From Tubulanus polymorphus (Eukaryota; Nemertea; Palaeonemertea; Tubulaniformes; Tubulanidae): a stretch of 64,000 nt of DNA. The translations under genes and the position numbers were made by a program. The notes below the pieces were generated by a model that saw only the letters and a list, made by a program, of their open reading frames with translations, did not search any database and was not told where the DNA came from. Below are positions 23,601 to 43,510 of the stretch, in pieces (the stretch's first letter is position 1; each line of letters starts with the position of its first letter). The DNA lies in contig NC_134033.1 in the NCBI RefSeq assembly GCF_964204645.1, forward strand, positions 13,332,155 to 13,396,154, read 5' to 3'.

Positions 23601-26600
23601 GTCGCGACGAAGCAGACAACTCGTTCCCTGTAGCGATTTGTATCGTTGTACGCCGCGGCTAAAACAGTTTAATTAGGCCAATTTTATCATCTCTTCGTCT
23701 TCAACCGAATGAGTAATACAGTAGTAACCTTATCTAATACACATAAAACCGCCGGGTCCATCACCGATTCAAACGTTTCGCCTTTCGATTTCGTTTATTT
23801 CAATTTTAGCGACAAAGAATTATTGCCTCTAACGATGTCGAATCGAAACGTGAAGTGCGCGTGGAAAGCACTCATCGACCCTCAATTCGAAAGACAGACG
23901 TCCTCCTCTTGAACTTGTCAACAGACTAATGATGACTGTTACAACGTATTCTTAGTACGCGGCTGGCAGAAGCTGTCTGATACCGAGGGACGATAAACCG
24001 ACCATAAATTCATAAAACCCTTGTAAATGCGGCGAGCGTTCACCTTTTAACCTCGACATCCCCCCCGGTCCGACCAGTGTGGGTGAAATAATAATGTGCA
24101 AACTGTACCGAGTTGAACCGTTTTTAGGCGTACTCTAAAAATCTGTGATTTCGGATTGACAACGATAAAAAACCTCATTAACTGCGGGTGCAATAAAACG
24201 GTTTCATCAAAAGGAGGAGCGCGCGCGTTGTAATTTCTGATACTCGATACACGAATTGAAATCGGATTTCTAAGATGTATGAGATTCGAAATTCGATCGA
24301 TAAAATTAATCGCCTAAATAAGACTTAGGCTTAAAAGAAATCGCTGTCTTGTTTCTCAAATCTGCTGAGCTAAAAAGTTGACCGACCGACCGCCTATCTA
24401 CCCTGTACATTACTTTTTTCAAAATCATGATCAGCTCACAATAACAGACGCGGCGGCTATAGAAATGAACTGATAACAAATTGTATCGCAGTTTAGAAAA
24501 TAACTCGGCCGATTAAGAGAAACAAGGTATCAATTTTTAGCCTAAGATTTGTAACGCGGATTTCGCGTACACAGGGCCAACAAGAGCAATCCCGGACGGA
24601 ACGGCGAGCAGTTTGTTGTTTGACGATACGAAAACGGCTCGGCCTCTCGATTTGATCATCAAAACACATCAATTCTCGTATTTAACTGTTTTTATCTTTA
24701 TCATGGTGGAATATAATTGCTGTGTAGAGCGTCTATAATACAGGCTGACTCAGTAAGGCTGTGTGATAAATGTTCCTACATCAAAAGCACCCGACCCAGA
24801 ACGTCTAACACTGAACATCCCTGCGCGGCAATAAATATCAATCCGTGCTCTCACAGAAGTTATTCATCTTTACCCGCTTACCGCAGTTAGATTTTCTCTT
24901 CTTGTTACCAGTTTTCGCTAGAAAACGATTTCTGTGAGAGCCGACTAAATTCAACGTATCTTTTAGCTATGTTGATAATCAGAGCGCGCGTGGTCGATTC
25001 TCGATCTCATTCACAACCTTCAAACGGCGCATTTTTTTTCGCCAGCACACACGCTCTTTACGTATAGGATTCCGATAAAATTCAACGCTAAAAAATCCAC
25101 CCAATTCTATCATATAGGCATCGTGTATAGTGCGAGCTGGCCAGAGCTAGAGAAATATAATGCATCAGGAACATAATTTCGAGAAAAGTTTAGTTCGGAC
25201 CGGCGGGTTTAAAAAGATTTTGAAATGTCTTTACGGAAAGAGGTCCCGTGATGGAGACACATTCTTTCCCATTGAGATGTATTGTATATATTCGATGATT
25301 CAGCGCATGGCGTATCATTATGGCTGCTTAATCAACCACCTCTCGAATGAGGGGCGGATCCGGGGTGCCTCTCGCCTCACGCGAGGCACCTACAAATCTG
25401 AAATGCCCTTCTTGAAGAAAGGCAGAAAGAAATTCAAAACTTTTTTCAAACTTTTGAAATATCCTATGAGCCAAAATTTCCAAAATCCTAAATCGAGTTT
25501 GGGGGTGTGCCCTATAGTCCCATTTTATCTTTGGTGAGGTAATCACAATAAGACTCATAGATTATCATTACATGTGCATTTTATTTTTCGAAAGGTGGCG
25601 AAAGAAGATTTACGTCGATGGAAAGTCCACTAATCTACTTCTCTAAAGATGACGCCCTCGACATCACGTGGTATCATCGCGCAAATCGGAAGATTCAATA
25701 CCAGGAAGCGCTGACTGGTAGTTACATGATGGTCAGCGCTGACGTCATCCTGGGCACGCACGCGCCCTCTGGCAAGACAAACATTCCCGTTATAGCTTAT
25801 GGAGGCGCTAACTCCAGCGATTTGTCGCTGGACGAATGGCTGGATGGAATATTAGTGAAAAAGAAAGGTAAAGAAAGGTTGATAATTGAATGATTGTTTG
25901 TTAGGGGTAGATCCAGGAGTTGGACCACTATTTGAGGGTAGCACAACTTTAAAAGGGCATAATCCTTGACAATCGAGGGGATTAAGTTTTAAAAATGCAC
26001 TGCTTTTTGAATTGCTAAACATTTAACCCATAAAACTTCTTATAAAAAAAAAATCATTGTCTTATGATAAGAGACCGACGAACACATAATAGCGCGGGGT
26101 CATCAGTGAGTTGTGCCGTAATTCGTGATGATATACCGTTGTCTAGGTGTAAAATTGAACATGGGCCACATCGACGCTATCGAACCGTCTTTGAAACTTT
26201 TGAGAAACAAGGAAGATTTGATCGACCAACCCGTGTGGATAAATGGTATCATACTGAAAGGACCAGGGTCTGCAACTACTCCTCTCGATAATATGGGGTG
26301 AGTATATAGAGCCTTTAGTAAATACCATTGAAGCGACGATCCTGTAAACTGATATGTTCTAAGCAGAGTTTTGGAAAGTCTTGGAAAGTTTTGGAAAATG
26401 GGAATTTTTACCATTCACTTGATAACAATCTTTAATATGAAAATACTTTGTCGATGGTATTGATAATTACCACTTATTTACTTTTAATGGGCCTATTCAT
26501 TGCCTGTTCTGGGTTGGCGATGTGTAACTTAGAGGTATGGATTATGTATGGAAAATGAAATTGGGAAGCCCATTAGAACCCTGTCTAAGACATCATTTTC

Positions 26601-29600
26601 TTATTACTGAGTATCGTTTGTCAAAATCTTTCTCAAGTCTTCTATTGCCTGGCTTTACAAAAACGAATGTTGCACAACACGATGAGCATTTTTACATCGA
26701 TATTGAATTCGGATAAATATTCTCATTTTCAGGTTTATCAAATTAGTGCATTCGACTTTCCCGTCGTGTACGTTCAGTGTTGGATGGTCAACTACGTGTT
26801 GTAATCACGGTGGTATCAATCGCACTCACGTAGAAGAGATGGCTATGGCTATCAAATACGTCCGACAACCGGTCTCGATCACAGTACCGGCAGCATTACT
26901 CAAACCGTCGTGGTCTGAACTCAAATGGTTCCTCGGTAAATCTGATCGGTAAGCACTTCGGCCTGCGTAAGGTAGATCAAAACCGCACGATGCCGGGTGA
27001 AAGCTACGCGCAAAGCTTGGCCCAGTTGCACAGTCGTGACTTAAGTCCAAAAGTGGTCTTAAATCTTAAAACTGGTCTCAAGTTGTTAGATAGGCTGCAG
27101 AACTAAGTTGTTCTTAGACTGGTCTTTAGTATAAGCCATGACTGTGCAACTGGCGCACCTTGAGTCATAGAATTCTCCACTGTGTATAAGGCCTGGGCCC
27201 AAACGAATGACTTAACAAAAAAATAGTAAACTCGTGGACGTATAAAACATAGTAAACCGTTCTGTGAAGTGGACGCCGGTCCGTTTGTTGAATGTTGTTT
27301 TGATAGTTATATAATTTCTGGTTTTCAAGGTTTACTCTGACAGTGACAACTCCAGCTGGTGACGATGATGACTGGCAGGACACGTCTCTCTACGATCTTC
27401 TGTACGTGCGAAACGACTACGACAAACGAACGATATTCTACGACCTGCCGGGACCGAAATTCTCGCAGTTTAAAAAACTCGTCAAAACCGCCGGCAGTAT
27501 TCTGCATTACTTCCCGCTGAGCACCAGAGACGGACTGGAAATCACGTGGGCTCATGCCGCCAATAGCAAAGCCGATATGAAGAAGGCTTTGTCAGGTAAT
27601 TGAAGACGTCCATCATGGACTCTATTTCGCACAGAGCAAAAACCGAAGATCGGTATTTATGCATCTTCTATATCAATAGGAACAAAGTCATCACGAATTA
27701 TTTTGTTTACGTGTTATGTACAGGCAATGATATGATGATTGAAGCTGATATACTAACCGATGCGAGAGGTACCGCGATTATGGCTCATCCTCCGCAGACT
27801 AGTAGCGATAATACGTTCGAAACATGGCTTACAGAAATCACGAAAACGACTAAAGGTACGTATCGGTTTTACTTTATTTTTTTCATACATTTTTCGCAGA
27901 AATGTTTGGCATTTATTGTAGCGTAGTTAATCAGTTTTGTATCACCTTTAATCTCATATTTGAAAAAGGAAGAAACCTATTATTGTAATTGAAAGAAATT
28001 GTGCTGAAATATTTTATGAGGTCGGTTTTTTCGTTATACGACTGCTGATTTCATCTATCGCTTTCTGTAAAGCGTCTAACGCTTCCTCATCGCCGTCGTC
28101 TTGGGCGAGTTCATACGCGCGATTGAACGATGCTAACGCCGACTCGAAATCACCGGTTTTAACTTGGCTTTGAGCGATCAGAACCGACGCGTTCGACGCC
28201 CAGACGTTGTCCTTCACTTCTGCGGCAGCGTCCAGCGAACGATTGCCGTAATCCAGGGCTTCTTTCGTTTTACCAATTTCTAGGTAACTCCTGCCGATCT
28301 CGTGATAGAGCCAAGAGCGTTCGGTGGGTGTGCGGGCTAGCGACAGCGTTTGGCTCCAGTAATGTACGGCTCGTTCGAAGTCTCCCAACCGCGCATATAC
28401 CCTGCCCAAATTATCTAAAGCGCGAGATTTGTCTTCGGATAACTGCTTCTCTTGAGATATTTTATAATCGACTTTATAGTGACGTAATGCCCTTTGGTGG
28501 TGGCCCATTTCCAAATAGGCATTTCCGAGAAAACAGTGGCAGTTCGCGACTATCTGGTCCAGATTAGGAAACGTTCTTTCATCCCAGTTGGTGACCGTGG
28601 TTAGACAGAGTTTCGCCCGTTTAAGAGCCTCGAGGTAATTTCCTTTGTTCTGCGCTGTTGTTATCTTCTCGAATTGTTTGTTTACGTATTGATTCAGCGA
28701 GGTTTTCGTCGAGTATTTCTTGCGTTGTGCCAAGCGTTCGTTTCGTCGAGCGTACATCGGTTTCTGTTGTCGCCACAAGTCGGCTCGTTGCGTCAAGTAG
28801 TTCAGACCGTCGCATACTAGTTCTTGTATTTCTCCGCGAGTTCCCTGCTGCGATTCGGTCTCGTCCAGTAGTTTCTCCAAATACACCTTGTCCGAATAGA
28901 GCTCTCCTAAAATAGAAAAAAAAGAATACCCTTCATAAACAGCAAGAAAGTCTGATTTACCAGGGGCGGATATCGGGTATGATTCTGGGAGGGATGCACC
29001 CAAAAAGGGCATATTATTAAAAGAGCTTCCCGAAAGAAAGCTCATCGAAAGAGCTTCCTGAAAAAATGTTGAGGGAGGTGCGTAAACCCCTGCGCCCTCC
29101 TTGGTTCCGCCCCTGTTTACGAATGTTTCGGTTTTGATGACGCACCGAGGAGTTGTTTGATCGTGCGCTCTTTTTTCACGCGTGACGGCGTCTTTTTCAG
29201 CGGTCTTCCGGTGCTTTGCCTCATCGGATGCCCGGCACTCCGACCGAACCTGGTCATACCCGGCCGATCCACAGTACGAGTGCTTTTCGTTCGCGCGTCG
29301 TCTTTAAAAAACGACAGATCTCCATCTTTCGTCAGTTTCACTTTATTGGGACTACCGCATGAATTCTCAATAGCCTCTCGTGCTTTCTATTGGTAAAATA
29401 AAAGATTATCTTTAAGAAATATGAGGCATTTTGTCGTAGAAAGTATACACGCCACCTGTAACGAACCTGTATGCCTAGTCTGAACTCATCTTGTTCCGGA
29501 CGAAGTTTATAGCCGCGATGGTAGAACACCAATGCGTGTTCGAAGTCGCCCATGTGGTACAATACCTCTGCCTTCTGATACAACCCTTTATCGAATCCTT

Positions 29601-31411
29601 TGTCTTCTCTTAAAGAGGCCTCGGCGTCTTCTAACGCTTGTTTCGTATCTCCCAAATTCAACCAACATCTCGATCTCGCCACTAAACAGTACCTGCCAAT
29701 CGTGATAATATCGTGAAAGCTCATTAGACAAACACGTAAAAACATTGAAGCCGAATCCCGCTGAAAACCCTCAATTCATATTACGTGCTTCCAAAATACG
29801 TGTACATAACTTTACAGTAATTTAGGGTATAGTATTTTACTGCTTTCATCTAACCTGTCCCCCGCTTCAATATCTAATGCGGTTGTGTAACTATCCGCAG
29901 CCTTCCTGTGATCGCCTTGTTTCGCTAGGATATCCGCTTCTGCTCGATAGCTTTCAAATGTACCAACCGGACCATTTTCGTCTTCTTCGCCGTAATTCAT
30001 CTGATTCTGGTTTTGATTTCACCCTCGCGATGGTGGGGTGTAGTTTGTGTTATGGACGTTTCTTCGTGTTGATGGTATGCGTTGCTATAGCATCCAAGGA
30101 ACTCGGTTGCTAAAGATCGGTTGTTGGTTGCTGTCGTGGTGGAAAAAGTGTTTGACTCACAACCGAGAGGGAGTGGGTTCGAATCCCATGTGAAAAATAA
30201 TAGAATTATGTCGTGACCGAATAATTCGGTCAGGAAATATTATGTCATCATCATGCCAGTTCGGCCCGTTTTAGTAAACGTAAGGCATAACTTATTATTT
30301 ATAGGAATGAAATTGGATTTCAAGGCCACGTCTGCCGTAGAACCTTGTTTACAGTTACTACAGAAGAAAAAACAGGAGATTGAACAACCAGTTTGGATAA
30401 ACGCCGACATTCTACAGGGTCCTAAAGGTATAAAACCACTGTATGACTGTACATACGGTCTCACTGTATATACGTACTCAGTTATTTTGAAGGTGATTAA
30501 CGGACCCACAATATCGATGACGTAGAAATTAAAGATATCATCAAAGAAACGGAACTTTTTCTCCGATGATAGTTAAAGTCTCGGATAGTTAGAACAATAG
30601 ATTTATATATCATCAATTATGGGTTCGTTTATCAAAAGCACTGTGATTATTTTGAAAGCATTTCTATTGGATGCATGTATTTTATGTTTGTTTGAATATT
30701 TTCTTTTCAGGTAAAGCCCCAGCGATAAATGCAGCGGAATTTTTGAATCTAGTCAAAACAGTCTTCCCAGAATGTACCATGTCGCTAGGTTGGACTACTG
30801 GGGGCGACTACAGTCCTTCCGGTAAATATAAACATAATCCCTATCAATAACAAACAACTGAACCTTTGTCTCGAATGAATTCCTATCGGGGTTTAGAAAT
30901 CTTGATCGCGATCTCCTGAAATGCTCAATAATTGAATACATCAATTCTTTATATAACATTGTATACGCTCATTAGGGGCATCACGAAAGGTTTTGGGAAG
31001 CCTTTGATTCAAAGATTAAAGCTCGCCGTCTATGTATACGAGTGAAGCGAATTGCTGTCAATTGATGTCAATTACTATGTCATTTCAGTTAATAAAACAG
31101 AAGAAGCGTACAGCCAGGCTATGGTCGCCGAAATGGCCGAAACTTGCAAGACCCTTCAGCAGCCTGTCACGTTTCCTGTACGCGCTATCCTGGTCAGGCG
31201 GTCGTGGAAATCATTGACGTGGTTGCTGAATCAGTCCAGAGGATTTTCGTTGACGATCTGGCACTCGGCAGCTGACCGCATCGACGTCGACGATTTAGTT
31301 TACATACGTAAAAACTCGCAAATAGATCGCGTTTATTACGATTTACCGGACGATCTGATGAAACAGCTGAAAACTAAATTGAACTACGAAAACTATAACG
31401 TACGCACTTGA
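20635..31411 (+). CDS. FAM151A-like: FAM151A/menorin-type protein with two FAM151 domains
   Basis: Type II or signal-anchored membrane protein of the FAM151/menorin (DUF2181) family, whose fold resembles glycerophosphodiester phosphodiesterases. Exons: 20635-20743, 25595-25867, 26147-26297, 26733-26948, 27330-27595, 27724-27855, 30305-30427, 30711-30821 and 31089-31411 (1704 nt, 567 residues; human FAM151A about 585). Residues 1-36 are a basic start plus one membrane segment ([15 protein letters not shown]). Domain 1 spans about 48-290, domain 2 about 305-565. Domain 2 keeps [36 protein letters not shown] and LGWTTG; domain 1 lacks several of these residues. Splice phases are consistent throughout, mostly phase 1. 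Intron 6 contains ODAD4 on the other strand. Substrate unknown; menorin acts in nematode dendrite patterning. Confidence 0.93.
21938..22068. repeat. Three-unit tandem repeat, about 43 bp per unit
   Basis: Three imperfect units start at 21938, 21978 and 22023. Each has GCGCTC, CTCACCGTCC, ACGCA and CCTCAAT in order. The repeat is pyrimidine-rich on this strand and unlike its AT-rich surroundings. It lies within the first intron of the FAM151A-type gene. Confidence 0.65.
23015..23104. repeat. Inverted repeat in FAM151A intron 1
   Basis: TCACTCACGTCTGATC at the left pairs exactly with GATCAGACGTGAGTGA at the right. A second inner pair, GGTTGGTAT and ATACCAACC, leaves a loop of about 26 nt. This is a 90-bp foldback, either a short element or a structured RNA; no target duplication is clear. 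Confidence 0.65.
24361..24546 (+). repeat. SINE-like dispersed repeat, copy A
   Basis: Starts TCTGCTGAGCT and ends AAGAGAAACAAGGTATC plus tttagcct. Internal landmarks are GCCTATCTACCCTGTACATT, AATCATGATCAGCT, AGAAATGAACTGATAACAAA and CGGCCGATTA. At least four other copies of this family lie in the window, all in the same orientation. No coding frame and no clear polymerase III boxes were seen, so the class is unknown. Confidence 0.75.
27018..27156. mobile_element. Small inverted-repeat element in FAM151A intron 4
   Basis: The left CCCAGTTGCACAGTC pairs with the right GACTGTGCAACTGG, and the interior contains repeats of actggtctta. A related stretch at 1918-2050 shares gttgcaca and actggtcttaaatc. 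Non-coding. Confidence 0.6.
27873..27878 (-). terminator. Candidate poly(A) signal of ODAD4
   Basis: AATAAA on the minus strand lies about 136 nt past the ODAD4 stop. It is only 18 nt inside the 5' end of the host intron, so the nested transcript would nearly reach the host exon at 27724-27855. Confidence 0.4.
28014..30000 (-). CDS. ODAD4: ODAD4/TTC25, outer dynein arm docking subunit, nested gene
   Basis: Tetratricopeptide protein that helps dock outer dynein arms onto ciliary doublet microtubules. Exons (-): 30000-29855, 29692-29467, 29386-29146 and 28906-28014 (1506 nt, 501 residues; human about 670, so the variable C-terminus is shorter). Family blocks: N-terminal TPRs ([51 protein letters not shown] and [16 protein letters not shown]); [18 protein letters not shown] then [37 protein letters not shown]; and four C-terminal TPRs (for example [19 protein letters not shown]). 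All phases agree. The gene lies wholly inside intron 6 of the FAM151A-type gene on the opposite strand and would be transcribed toward the host promoter. Confidence 0.95.
28961..29115. mobile_element. hAT-like mini-element inside ODAD4 intron 3
   Basis: Starts CAGGGGCGGATATCGG and ends with the complement of CAGGGGCGGAACCAA. The flanks GATTTAC and TTTACGAA share TTTAC, a likely 5-bp target duplication. CAGGGGCGGA ends are widespread in animal hAT elements. At 155 bp it fills most of the 239-bp intron. Related ends appear near 32256 and 57758. Confidence 0.65.
30115..30190 (+). repeat. tRNA-derived SINE fragment or tRNA pseudogene
   Basis: Contains a perfect polymerase III B-box word, GGTTCGAATCC, about 45 nt after a weak A-box-like TCGTGGTGG. 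The upstream bases do not fold into a full cloverleaf that I can recognise. It lies just upstream of ODAD4, within the FAM151A intron. Confidence 0.4.
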
Positions 31412-35756: not shown

Positions 35757-38700
35757 CTAATGCAATGTTATGGCTTCAAGCTCTTTACGTAATTTATCTT
35801 CAGTTTTTATCTTTTCTAATTGATTCAGTTCCAATGATTTTCCTTCGTTGAGTTGCTGTTTCAGTTTTTCAATAGCATCGATTTTCTGAAATAAACCACG
35901 TACAAGTCAAACCATCAGAAACGATGAAATGACAAAAATTTCGTCCTAGTTTTGAGATGGTTGTGAACTTGCGTACCTTCTTCAAATTTCTGATTTTCTT
36001 GTCCTTTTCTGCATCGCCAGTAGTTAGTGTATCACTAGTTGACGAGCTGGCAGGAGTGTGAGATGTTTGCACAGGCTGAAATAATAAGAGTATAACACCA
36101 GTTTGTTAATCCTTCTCAAAAAGAAAATTGTAAAATACCAATATCAAGGGCGAAGATATTATTCTGCAATCCCCAAACCTGAAACGCAATAATGCGAAAA
36201 AAGACATTCCATACTTCATCAACATTTTTCCTATTTATAATCATTAATTGTATTCAGAATTTCACCCGAGTCATTCTTAGTTGACTAGGAACTACACACA
36301 TTTTATCAGCTCACTTTTTAAAAATGTGATTGTCCCTGACTGGAGGGGTTGGCCCCAGACTACATAACCAAGTGTTAAATAAAGTTACCAGTTCTTAAAT
36401 AAAATTAAACCAGTTCTTAAATAAAATTACCAGTTCTTGCTCCTGTTTGGCTTTCCTTGCTTCACGTTTCTTCTTATTCTTAAGAGCAGCTTTTGATAAA
36501 TTCTCATTTTGTTTCGAGTTTGAAGGCGGTTCATTTTCGTGAAGTTTCAACGTAGACGGCGTGCCACGAGCTCCTGGTGGCCGGTAAACCTGAACCTTGG
36601 CTGAAAAATGAGAAATTCCCATCAATAAATTGACAGTCATCAAATATATTTTGCTGTCATTCGAAGGCTAAAATTGAATCATCGTCATCAACGTTCAAAA
36701 TATTTCTGACAAACTTACGTTCATTCACTGTTGTATCAGCATTTTCTTGTGGCTTGTAACGTATAAGTGGAGCTTGGTAGGTTCCGGCTGATACTGGTTG
36801 CCAGACCGCTTCCCATAGTTCTTGTGAATGTTGGCACTTTTCGTCATAGACCAGACTACCAGTATAATGCCAAATCTTAAAGCTGTAACGACAGATAAAA
36901 TCACAGTTAGTACTTTGTCAGTTGTAAGAACAGCCTATGGTATAGTGGGAGTAGTTTGAATATCTAAAAAATTTTGATACTTTGTTGCTCATTTCTGCTG
37001 AGCTTAAAAGTTGATCGATTAGGAGAAACAAGGCATCATCTTTTTAGGTGGATTGAAAGGAGTTATTTTCACATACTTGTTGTCCACACGCAATCGTGGA
37101 GCCGTGGTCGCAGTGAGGATATATTCACCATTTGGACACCACTCAAACGATGTTGTATCAGCCGCCTTTATTTTACTTATCAGTTTATGTTTTTTCACAT
37201 CCCAGAACTCGATATGACCGGATAGATTCCCAAAACCAGCCAAACATAGCAGTATCAATAAATTAAGGTAAAACTGATACTAGATTTCTGTCAGAGCACT
37301 TTTTTTCTAAACTTTGGATACCTTGATTATACAATAAAGCCCTACAGTTTCAGGTAGGATGCTTCTTACTGCTTAATCAATTTCTTAAAAGGATATCAGA
37401 TCCGAATGGATTGAAGTGCACAAAGTTCCGGGGTCCAGTACCAAAATCAAATACTGGTTCACATTTCATGTTGTACAAAGTAGCTTTTGCCGGCATGACT
37501 ATCAAAATAGGTTAAGGATAACAATATCTCCTGTAGGAAAATGACTATTTTACTGTTCAGCATGTAAAATAAAGAATTATGATGGCAATTCTAATGGAGA
37601 ATGCTAAGCATTTTAGATGTGTTTCCTAAATATTCCAAATAATTCTACATATAACATGGATGGTAAAGTATGTCCAAAATTACATCGTGAATATGAAAAA
37701 GGATACAACCATATACGACACAAAAATGTGGAGACTTTGGATTCCACTCCAGATGGTAAACTGGTCCGTTTTTACCTGACAAAATACGAAATGAGCTCCA
37801 TTTGTAAGGGTATCAAGAGAAATATTGTACTTTCATGTACTTCCTAAATATCCAAGAATCCTATCAGACCGCTGTAATATAGCTCCTCACCTAGTGGTAC
37901 AAGGCTACTGTCTCCGTTCGTTGGGATGAAATGCAACCCCTGATCACCGTAATAAGAGTCAGCACTTGATTCTACACTAGTTAAAACAAGCACAGCAGTT
38001 CCTGACAATAAAAAATATGCATTCTTAAAAACCTGGAAACAAGTAACTTCATTTTCTAATTTTCAAGACATCTGATACTGCATTGTTTATTCGAAATGAA
38101 TGCATTACGGTTTGGTACCTTGGAAGTTCCAGTGCATAGTTACACTTTCAGCCTTGAAGAAACTTTTGTTGGCAATTATTGAGTTCGTACCAGTAAATTC
38201 GGGATATTTATACAATCTTACGAAACTAGGCTGACCCTAGAAATGAAACGTCATATAGATGAATAAGCATAACTCAAAATGTTGATGACAATCATAATTG
38301 TATGATTTACCTTACTACCAGGTACATATGTTGCTATGTAATAAGGTGGGCCAGTTTTGGTTATGCAACTGTCACTCAATTTTTCCAGTCTTAATTTTGT
38401 CTTGAATGTGTCTGAAAGAACATGTTTTTAGTAAATACATCCAACCGATAATAACACATTTCTTCAATTAGTCATTTTACATCGATTACGATACATTAAG
38501 GATATTCTTACCGAAATTTCCATCAGCATAAAAGTGAACTTCATTAGTTACAGTTCTAGAGCATATTCCTTCATCGTCCGACCATTGAGGGCACCTTATC
38601 AAATCAATTACGATTCATTTACGACGAAAAACACCGGTTTCAGAAGGTATATAACAACATCACGATTGGTAGAACACTATATCCGTGTTGACGCGATGAG

Positions 38701-39998
38701 GAGAGAATCCCACAATGATAATAAAAAGTCCGAAAATGAAACTTCGAGATAGTAGTTTATTTCAACGTTTCGACTATATCCTAATAGTCATCTTCAGGAA
38801 TAAAGCGTAATAATGAAAAATCATTATTCCTGAAGATGACTATTAGGATATAGTCGAAACGTTGAAATAAACTACTATCTCGAAGTTTCATTTTCGGACT
38901 TTTTATTATCATTGCGGGATTCTCTCCTTATATAACAACATCTATTCCTGATGCAGTTTTTTGACTGTGAAATTGAATGAAAATTACAAAACTTTCTTCC
39001 ATAATTCTCACTTACTGGTACTTACCAATTGTTAGCATTTTTCTGAATAAATCCCTTTACTAAAGAGCCGGTTTTAACATCCCAGATGTTCAAGTTATTC
39101 GGACCTAATTGGCCTTGAGGCGTTCCAGCTACAACTGAATATCAAATAAATAATGTTATAAATTTTAATTCTTGGTCACAATGGTGTATTGAACATTTGC
39201 GTAATTGAAGGAATCAAAAGAATGCAATCAAATTCATACAAACATTATCACCAAAGCATTGGCGCACTGACCATAGTATGATTCCCACGTGGCTAGATAC
39301 GTCGATTTTGGGGAAAATTCTAGAAAAATCGTTTTCGGTTTTTGAAGTTGACATACTATAGCGTTGGATCTTAAATCGACCACAATTACACTGCAATAGA
39401 ATAGGTATCAAACATTTAACTGACCAATAAACGTTTCATAAATAAAAATGCAAATGCAAATCAACACTTACAATTTTCCATTTATATAAGCAAAAAGGTT
39501 ACCATCGCTAGAAAATGCCATACACCGGCAGTTTTTATTTGTATCCCTAAAAATCAACATAATGCAAATCTCTGTTATTTATTCCCCAGTGAACCATATG
39601 GCCAGGCTAACATATCATTTGGACAAAAAATGATTCCAAAATCATGTAAGGCACATGTATATATTTTAGCCCGCTTGTATCCAAGAAAAAGGTGTTTTCA
39701 GTTACCTGAAATCCTCTTTTCGTTTGTTGGTAGGAGGGCCATAATGCATCCATATCCCATCTGATCCTCTCACTAAAAATGAAAGTTTTTAATAGAATAC
39801 GATTTGAGTGACTAAAGTCGTGAAACTTAATTATCTTTTTGTGTCTGCACCACGCGTGCAAATTAAACAATATTGGCAGTGATGGGTCGTTCGACTCAAT
39901 ACTTCAGATTAATTGTACAAAAGTGTCAATAAAGAGGGTCAAACTAATTTTATGGGACAATTACATGTGACACACGGCGGTACTATGGGCGCTGACAT
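35757..39998 (-). CDS. EIF2A: Eukaryotic translation initiation factor 2A
   Basis: Cytosolic WD-repeat protein linked to GTP-independent Met-tRNA delivery and non-AUG or stress translation. Sixteen coding exons (-): 39998-39965, 39772-39706, 39546-39472, 39390-39272, 39134-39026, 38594-38512, 38411-38311, 38236-38119, 38001-37891, 37775-37707, 37498-37397, 37251-37077, 36882-36719, 36600-36431, 36075-35977 and 35885-35757 (1725 nt, 574 residues; human 585). Landmarks: VTLRGSDGIW, CRCMAFSSDGNLFAY, IFLEFSPKSTYLATWE, NLNIWDVKTGSL, WCPQWSDDE, SFVRLYKYPEF, NGPVYHLEWNPKS, FMPAKATLYNMKCEPVFDFG, LAGFGNLSGHIEFWDV, FEWCPNGEYILTATTAPRLR, a lysine-rich AALKNKKKREARKAKQEQ and a C-terminal helix ELNQLEKIKTEDKL. 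Two adjacent introns carry U12-type signals. Phases agree at every junction. Confidence 0.97.
36993..37047 (+). repeat. SINE-like repeat, copy D, internally deleted, in an eIF2A intron
   Basis: TTCTGCTGAGCTTAAAAGTT is joined directly to GATTAGGAGAAACAAGG, so about 130 nt of the family interior is missing. It sits in the 194-bp intron between exons ending 37077 and starting 36882, 29 nt from the 5' splice site. Confidence 0.65.
37252..37396 (-). other. U12-type AT-AC intron in eIF2A
   Basis: A 145-nt intron starting ATATCCTTTT and ending TTGATAC, with TACCTTAAT as branch site whose second A is 11 nt before the 3' end. These match the minor-spliceosome AT-AC consensus (ATATCCTT; TCCTTAAC; terminal AC). 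No GT-AG pair fits the position. Splicing restores FNPFGSV-LCLAGFGNL, aligning with human eIF2A, with phase kept. Confidence 0.88.
37499..37706 (-). other. U12-type GT-AG intron in eIF2A
   Basis: A 208-nt intron starting GTATCCTTTTTC and ending GATAG, with branch site ATCCTTAAC whose As lie 13-14 nt before the 3' end. Both are close to the minor-spliceosome consensus (GTATCCTTT; TTCCTTAAC). Joining gives VVYG-FMPAKAT, the human eIF2A reading, in phase. It is separated from the AT-AC intron by one 102-nt exon. Confidence 0.88.
38699..38928. repeat. Long near-perfect inverted repeat, about 104-bp arms
   Basis: The left arm (38699-38802) begins AGGAGAGAATCCCACAATGA; the right arm (38825-38928) is its reverse complement with one noticed mismatch and a loop of about 22 nt. 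Each arm carries ctgaagatgactat...atagtcgaaacg, a small stem-loop followed by GAAAC, then a run reading aataaactactatc. Such phrases are known from the ends of Penelope-like and similar retroelements. It lies within a 431-nt eIF2A intron. Confidence 0.8.

Positions 39999-41981: not shown

Positions 41982-43510
<1,529 letters not shown>

Follow-up and report, generated by a model that had tools for sequence, protein, structure and literature searches.

Genes with two minor (U12-type) introns number about 50 each in human and mouse, the best known being those of the voltage-gated sodium and calcium channels. Published human counts likewise give about 50 genes with two minor introns, together with three genes that carry three (PMC6717393, PMC3584512), and the clustering of U12 introns within single genes proved significant in 21 of the 21 genomes tested (PMC7367187). 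Minor introns of the A-type, with AT-AC termini, require CENATAC (de Wolf et al., 2021, PMC8280824); when HeLa cells were depleted of it, 92% of the A-type minor introns were affected, as against 24% of those of the G-type. In the U2/U12 twintrons, exemplified by Drosophila prospero, minor sites could shape the choice of exons in a single transcript.

The eIF2A gene analysed here, which codes for a ribosome-associated protein, lies in a 64-kb stretch of DNA from Tubulanus polymorphus, referred to below as the window. Like the two-minor-intron genes of human and mouse, it appears to hold two U12 introns in an otherwise U2-intron gene; here the two are direct neighbours round a 102-nt exon and differ in subtype. 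An earlier note on this DNA had described adjacent pairs of U12 introns as rarer than U12 introns themselves, which is a fair statement, although the human gene count and the clustering in all 21 genomes mean that such a pair is not exceptional. The downstream intron of the pair (intron B) resembles the CENATAC-requiring introns in its AT-AC ends and in its U12 donor and branch site, and a CENATAC start exon is present in the same genome, the dependence of intron B on this factor being a prediction; unlike those introns, it shares its exon with a G-type neighbour (intron A). The likeness to the prospero twintron lies in minor sites that could shape exon choice, but the introns described here are consecutive rather than nested, and no competing U2 intron that was tried restores the protein. 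EIF2A did not turn up as a minor-intron gene in the main texts searched, and searching by phrase for an exon with a minor intron on each side returned nothing relevant, although such cases may already have been described.

Results

The eIF2A gene and its neighbourhood

The gene model comprises exons 2 to 16 (15 exons separated by 14 introns) on the minus strand at positions 35757–39772 of the window; the first exon was not located. Joined together, these exons form a frame of 562 codons that is open up to a single terminal stop. The assembled protein aligns over its whole length (residues 1–560) with human eIF2A (PDB entry 8dys_A, E = 1.8e-187) and also matches the Schizosaccharomyces pombe protein (3wj9_A, E = 2.3e-83). 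It contains the Pfam eIF2A domain (PF08662, E = 8.8e-75), which together with this similarity identifies the gene as eIF2A. Exons matching the domain were found three times in the genome, two of them within the present gene and the third on contig C4; no second eIF2A copy was found among these three matches, and that on C4 may belong to eIF3b. Scans of the bacterial/archaeal and viral collections yielded no relatives of the gene.

Intron 5 of the gene contains a near-perfect palindrome (window 38696–38931), with two 108-nt arms that are 98% complementary and 20 nt apart; it has the look of a small non-autonomous transposon. The gene immediately upstream of eIF2A, likewise on the minus strand, is SERP1/RAMP4 (window 41982–43510; Pfam RAMP4, E = 7.2e-30); SERP1 and EIF2A are neighbours in vertebrates too, in divergent order. 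Elsewhere in the window, at least three stretches encoding Menorin domains occupy positions 25561–30525 of the plus strand, with an exon of a TPR protein at 28014–29303 on the strand opposite to them.

Exon 11 and its flanking introns

The minus strand was read from 38100 to 36900 and the junctions were rebuilt by script. The earlier note had placed a 102-nt exon between two U12 introns of different subtypes, with both junctions restoring conserved eIF2A protein in phase, and its particulars (coordinates, termini, branch sites and phase) all held to the base. Exon 10 (37707–37775, minus strand, as are all features of this region) ends in ...GTC GTA TAT GGT T and is followed by intron A (37499–37706), a 208-nt U12-type GT-AG intron that starts GTATCCTTTTT. 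Its 5' end is GTATCCTTTTTC, with the U12 5' splice site GTATCCTTT at 37698–37706; its last bases are TCCTTAACCTATTTTGATAG, closing with AG, and its U12 branch site, TCCTTAAC, occupies 37511–37518, with the branch A at 37512, 13 nt ahead of the last intron base. Exon 11 (37397–37498) has 102 nt and codes for (F)MPAKATLYNMKCEPVFDFGTGPRNFVHFNPFGS(V). Intron B (37252–37396), of 145 nt and of U12-type AT-AC, has ATATCCTTTT as its 5' end, the U12 5' splice site ATATCCTTT at 37388–37396 and the last bases ACCTTAATTTATTGATAC, closing with AC; the U12 branch site ACCTTAAT lies at 37262–37269 and its branch A, at 37263, is 11 nt ahead of the intron end. Exon 12 (37077–37251) then opens with TG CTA TGT TTG GCT GGT.

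Both introns are in phase 1, splitting a codon after its first base, and the alignment with human eIF2A runs without a gap across both junctions (CVVYG-FMPAKATLYNMKCEPVFDFGTGPRNFVHFNPFGS-VLCLAGFGN). A genome search found the 455-bp stretch as a single copy in the 268-Mb assembly, and an introner or repeat origin was accordingly rejected.

Assignment to the U12 class

The scoring of both introns with U12 matrices, which the earlier note had proposed, bore out its assignment; the matrices were approximate and written by ourselves from the published consensus, and are distinct from those of SpliceRack or intronIC. On this approximate scale, the donor of intron A, GTATCCTTTT, which agrees with RTATCCTT, reached the maximum of 16.7 bits, and that of intron B (ATATCCTTTT...AC), which combines agreement with RTATCCTT with AT-AC ends, scored 14.8. 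The branch sites, expected to lie near TTCCTTAAC in sequence and some 10–15 nt from the 3' end, were TATCCTTAACC in intron A (13 nt; 13.0 approximate bits of a maximum of 15.7) and TTACCTTAATT in intron B (11 nt; 10.7 approximate bits), the latter being two positions off the consensus. By the same approximate matrices, the remaining 12 eIF2A introns gave donor scores of at most -3.0 and branch-site scores of at most 2.2, and to judge from these sites they look U2-type.

Across both strands of the window, RTATCCTTT occurs three times, and apart from introns A and B there is no complete U12-like intron of 300 nt or less. No further U12 introns were found in eIF2A, the lone ATATCCTT in intron 6 being without a U12 branch site. 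This motif lies at 38505 (minus strand), 6 nt inside the U2 donor (GTAAGAATATCCTT) of that intron; it is probably there by chance and is possibly a decoy or a trace of a change of class. A modest U2-like acceptor, TCATTTTCCTACAG, is found inside intron A at 37531 (minus strand), 32 nt short of the true intron end, and its use would shift the frame.

Minor-spliceosome genes and other U12-like introns in the genome

Rfam matches above the cut-off were obtained in the genome for U4atac, U12, U11 and U6atac, the last in three copies. Two of the U6atac genes share an identical core and lie on different chromosomes (locus L003, 1501–1619; locus L004, 1501–1617), and the third copy, at locus L005, is diverged. 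The genome copies of the minor snRNAs are able to pair with the sites of both introns. The donor of intron A can pair over 7 nt with U11 and over 8 nt with U6atac (one G-U pair in each case), and that of intron B over 8 nt with U11 (including one G-U pair) and over 7 nt with U6atac. The branch site of intron A forms seven Watson–Crick pairs with GTAAGGA of the U12 snRNA, leaving the A bulged, and that of intron B also forms seven pairs (one of them G-U) round a bulged A. The N-terminal exon of CENATAC, that is, the start of the gene only, was detected with a score of 38.8 bits, the cut-off being 25.3.

A genome-wide search with a U12 pattern in four length bands yielded 13 matches, intron A itself among them, compared with nine for a reversed-pattern control, and the U12 pattern alone therefore proves little. 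Seven further introns found by the pattern nevertheless splice to open frames and have matched termini. Four are GT-AG introns, in an MYCBP-like and an NLK-like gene (both named by eye), a cytidylyltransferase gene (identified by Pfam) and ORC3; three are AT-AC introns, in the gene for gamma-tubulin complex component 2, a SPAG17-like gene and a coiled-coil-like frame without a name. Counting introns A and B as well, the termini are matched in nine of nine U12-like introns, a small set that was selected by consensus pattern. At the AT-AC introns of loci L013, L015 and L022, an AG stands 0 to 2 bases past the AC, yet it is splicing at the AC that keeps the protein frame going.

Discussion

We consider it very probable, from the sequence of the locus, that the eIF2A gene described here is ordinary and functional, with adjacent G-type (GT-AG) and A-type (AT-AC) minor introns and a constitutive exon 11. 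We infer splicing at both junctions from the sequence elements together with the conserved protein that it restores. In the proposed course of events, the U11 and U12 snRNPs would recognize the donor and branch site of each intron and U4atac/U6atac/U5 would excise introns A and B separately, so that exon 11 would be joined constitutively. The claim of the earlier note that inclusion of the exon hangs on the minor spliceosome is upheld to this extent: given the U12 hallmarks of both introns and the minor snRNAs in the genome, inclusion very probably needs minor splicing twice.

The consequences of failure can be read from the frames. Retention of intron A brings in a stop 20 codons into the intron, and that of intron B a stop after six codons, while skipping of exon 11 keeps the frame and removes 34 residues. 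Weak minor splicing would be expected to yield mainly RNA in which A or B is retained together with its early stop; such RNA would presumably be degraded. The unequal response of the two subtypes to CENATAC depletion (PMC8280824) leads to the prediction that intron B, being of the A-type, would be the more sensitive of the two and the one to depend on CENATAC. The GT donor of A and the AC acceptor of B form a mismatch that would oppose exon skipping as a side effect; skipping would call for this disfavoured GT-to-AC joining, and retention with an early stop is therefore the likelier product of failure.

By default, the intron pair is regarded as a relic of ancient minor introns that has persisted passively. 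A regulated switch, in which lowered minor-spliceosome or CENATAC activity would hold eIF2A RNA unspliced and raised activity, for example under stress, would free eIF2A, seems improbable. Such a switch would fit with the early stop that follows if either intron is retained, and minor introns can serve as switches through the unstable U6atac (PMC3728624); moreover, A-type introns need CENATAC, and the authors who discovered this factor mention regulation by intron subtype as possible (PMC8280824). However, a single minor intron would be enough for this purpose, and nothing in the gene besides the two introns points to control. The proposal of the earlier note that U12 activity could act as a gate for a stress-related translation factor is also not supported by what is reported of the factor itself: in HeLa cells that had lost eIF2A, no effect on the initiation of translation could be detected, even with eIF2 inhibited (PMC12221301), and a study of yeast eIF2A reports likewise (PMC10945734). 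There is a slim chance that the pair acts as a lock and a valve, the GT/AC mismatch barring skipping and CENATAC, on which intron B alone would depend, thereby setting the amount of full-length eIF2A RNA by itself.

Alternative skipping of exon 11 to give an eIF2A isoform that is 34 propeller residues shorter appears very unlikely. The earlier note had pointed out that skipping would join the GT 5' site to the AC 3' site. The joint is indeed in frame, as an isoform would require, but GT-AC combinations are disfavoured, as are AT-AG ones (PMC3584512), and skipping is accordingly predicted to be rare. The matched termini throughout the small pattern-selected set of nine U12-like introns and the location of the lost residues within the conserved eIF2A domain also argue against this isoform.

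We see equally little likelihood that introns A and B merely resemble U12-type introns, their excision being the work of the major spliceosome at the same or nearby sites. Certain AT-AC introns are of the major type (PMC6717393), and intron A does contain the modest U2-like acceptor described above; against this stand the full U12 donors and branch sites, at the right distance, of both introns. Furthermore, when alternative GT-AG, GC-AG and AT-AC pairs near the junctions were tried, several kept the frame but altered or removed conserved residues, and only the splice sites given above yielded a gap-free peptide resembling human eIF2A. For intron B, each GT-AG choice tried harmed the conserved peptide, which was restored only by ATATCC...AC at the sites described, the AC end being needed for the match to the conserved protein. 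That chance matches were combined with a wrong gene model is hardly credible and was rejected, since U12-like pairs of up to 3 kb do arise randomly about 0.95 times per window in a first-order Markov simulation, but for U12-like introns no longer than 300 nt the same simulation expects only 0.08 per 64-kb window (both strands), a figure that refers to one pair, and the position of each junction follows independently from protein homology on either side.

The arrangement in this eIF2A gene is real, precise and uncommon, and is of a known kind; it extends the known clustering of minor introns by one gene. Should the pair indeed work as a lock and a valve, mixed pairs round one exon would be expected to have been kept by selection in other genes too. 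As a gene that very probably carries a G-type and an A-type intron round one exon, it offers an in-gene comparison of the two subtypes in the same RNA, cell and neighbourhood; exon 11 could thus test in vivo whether a CENATAC-type selectivity operates outside vertebrates, and whether intron termini truly forbid GT-to-AC joining.
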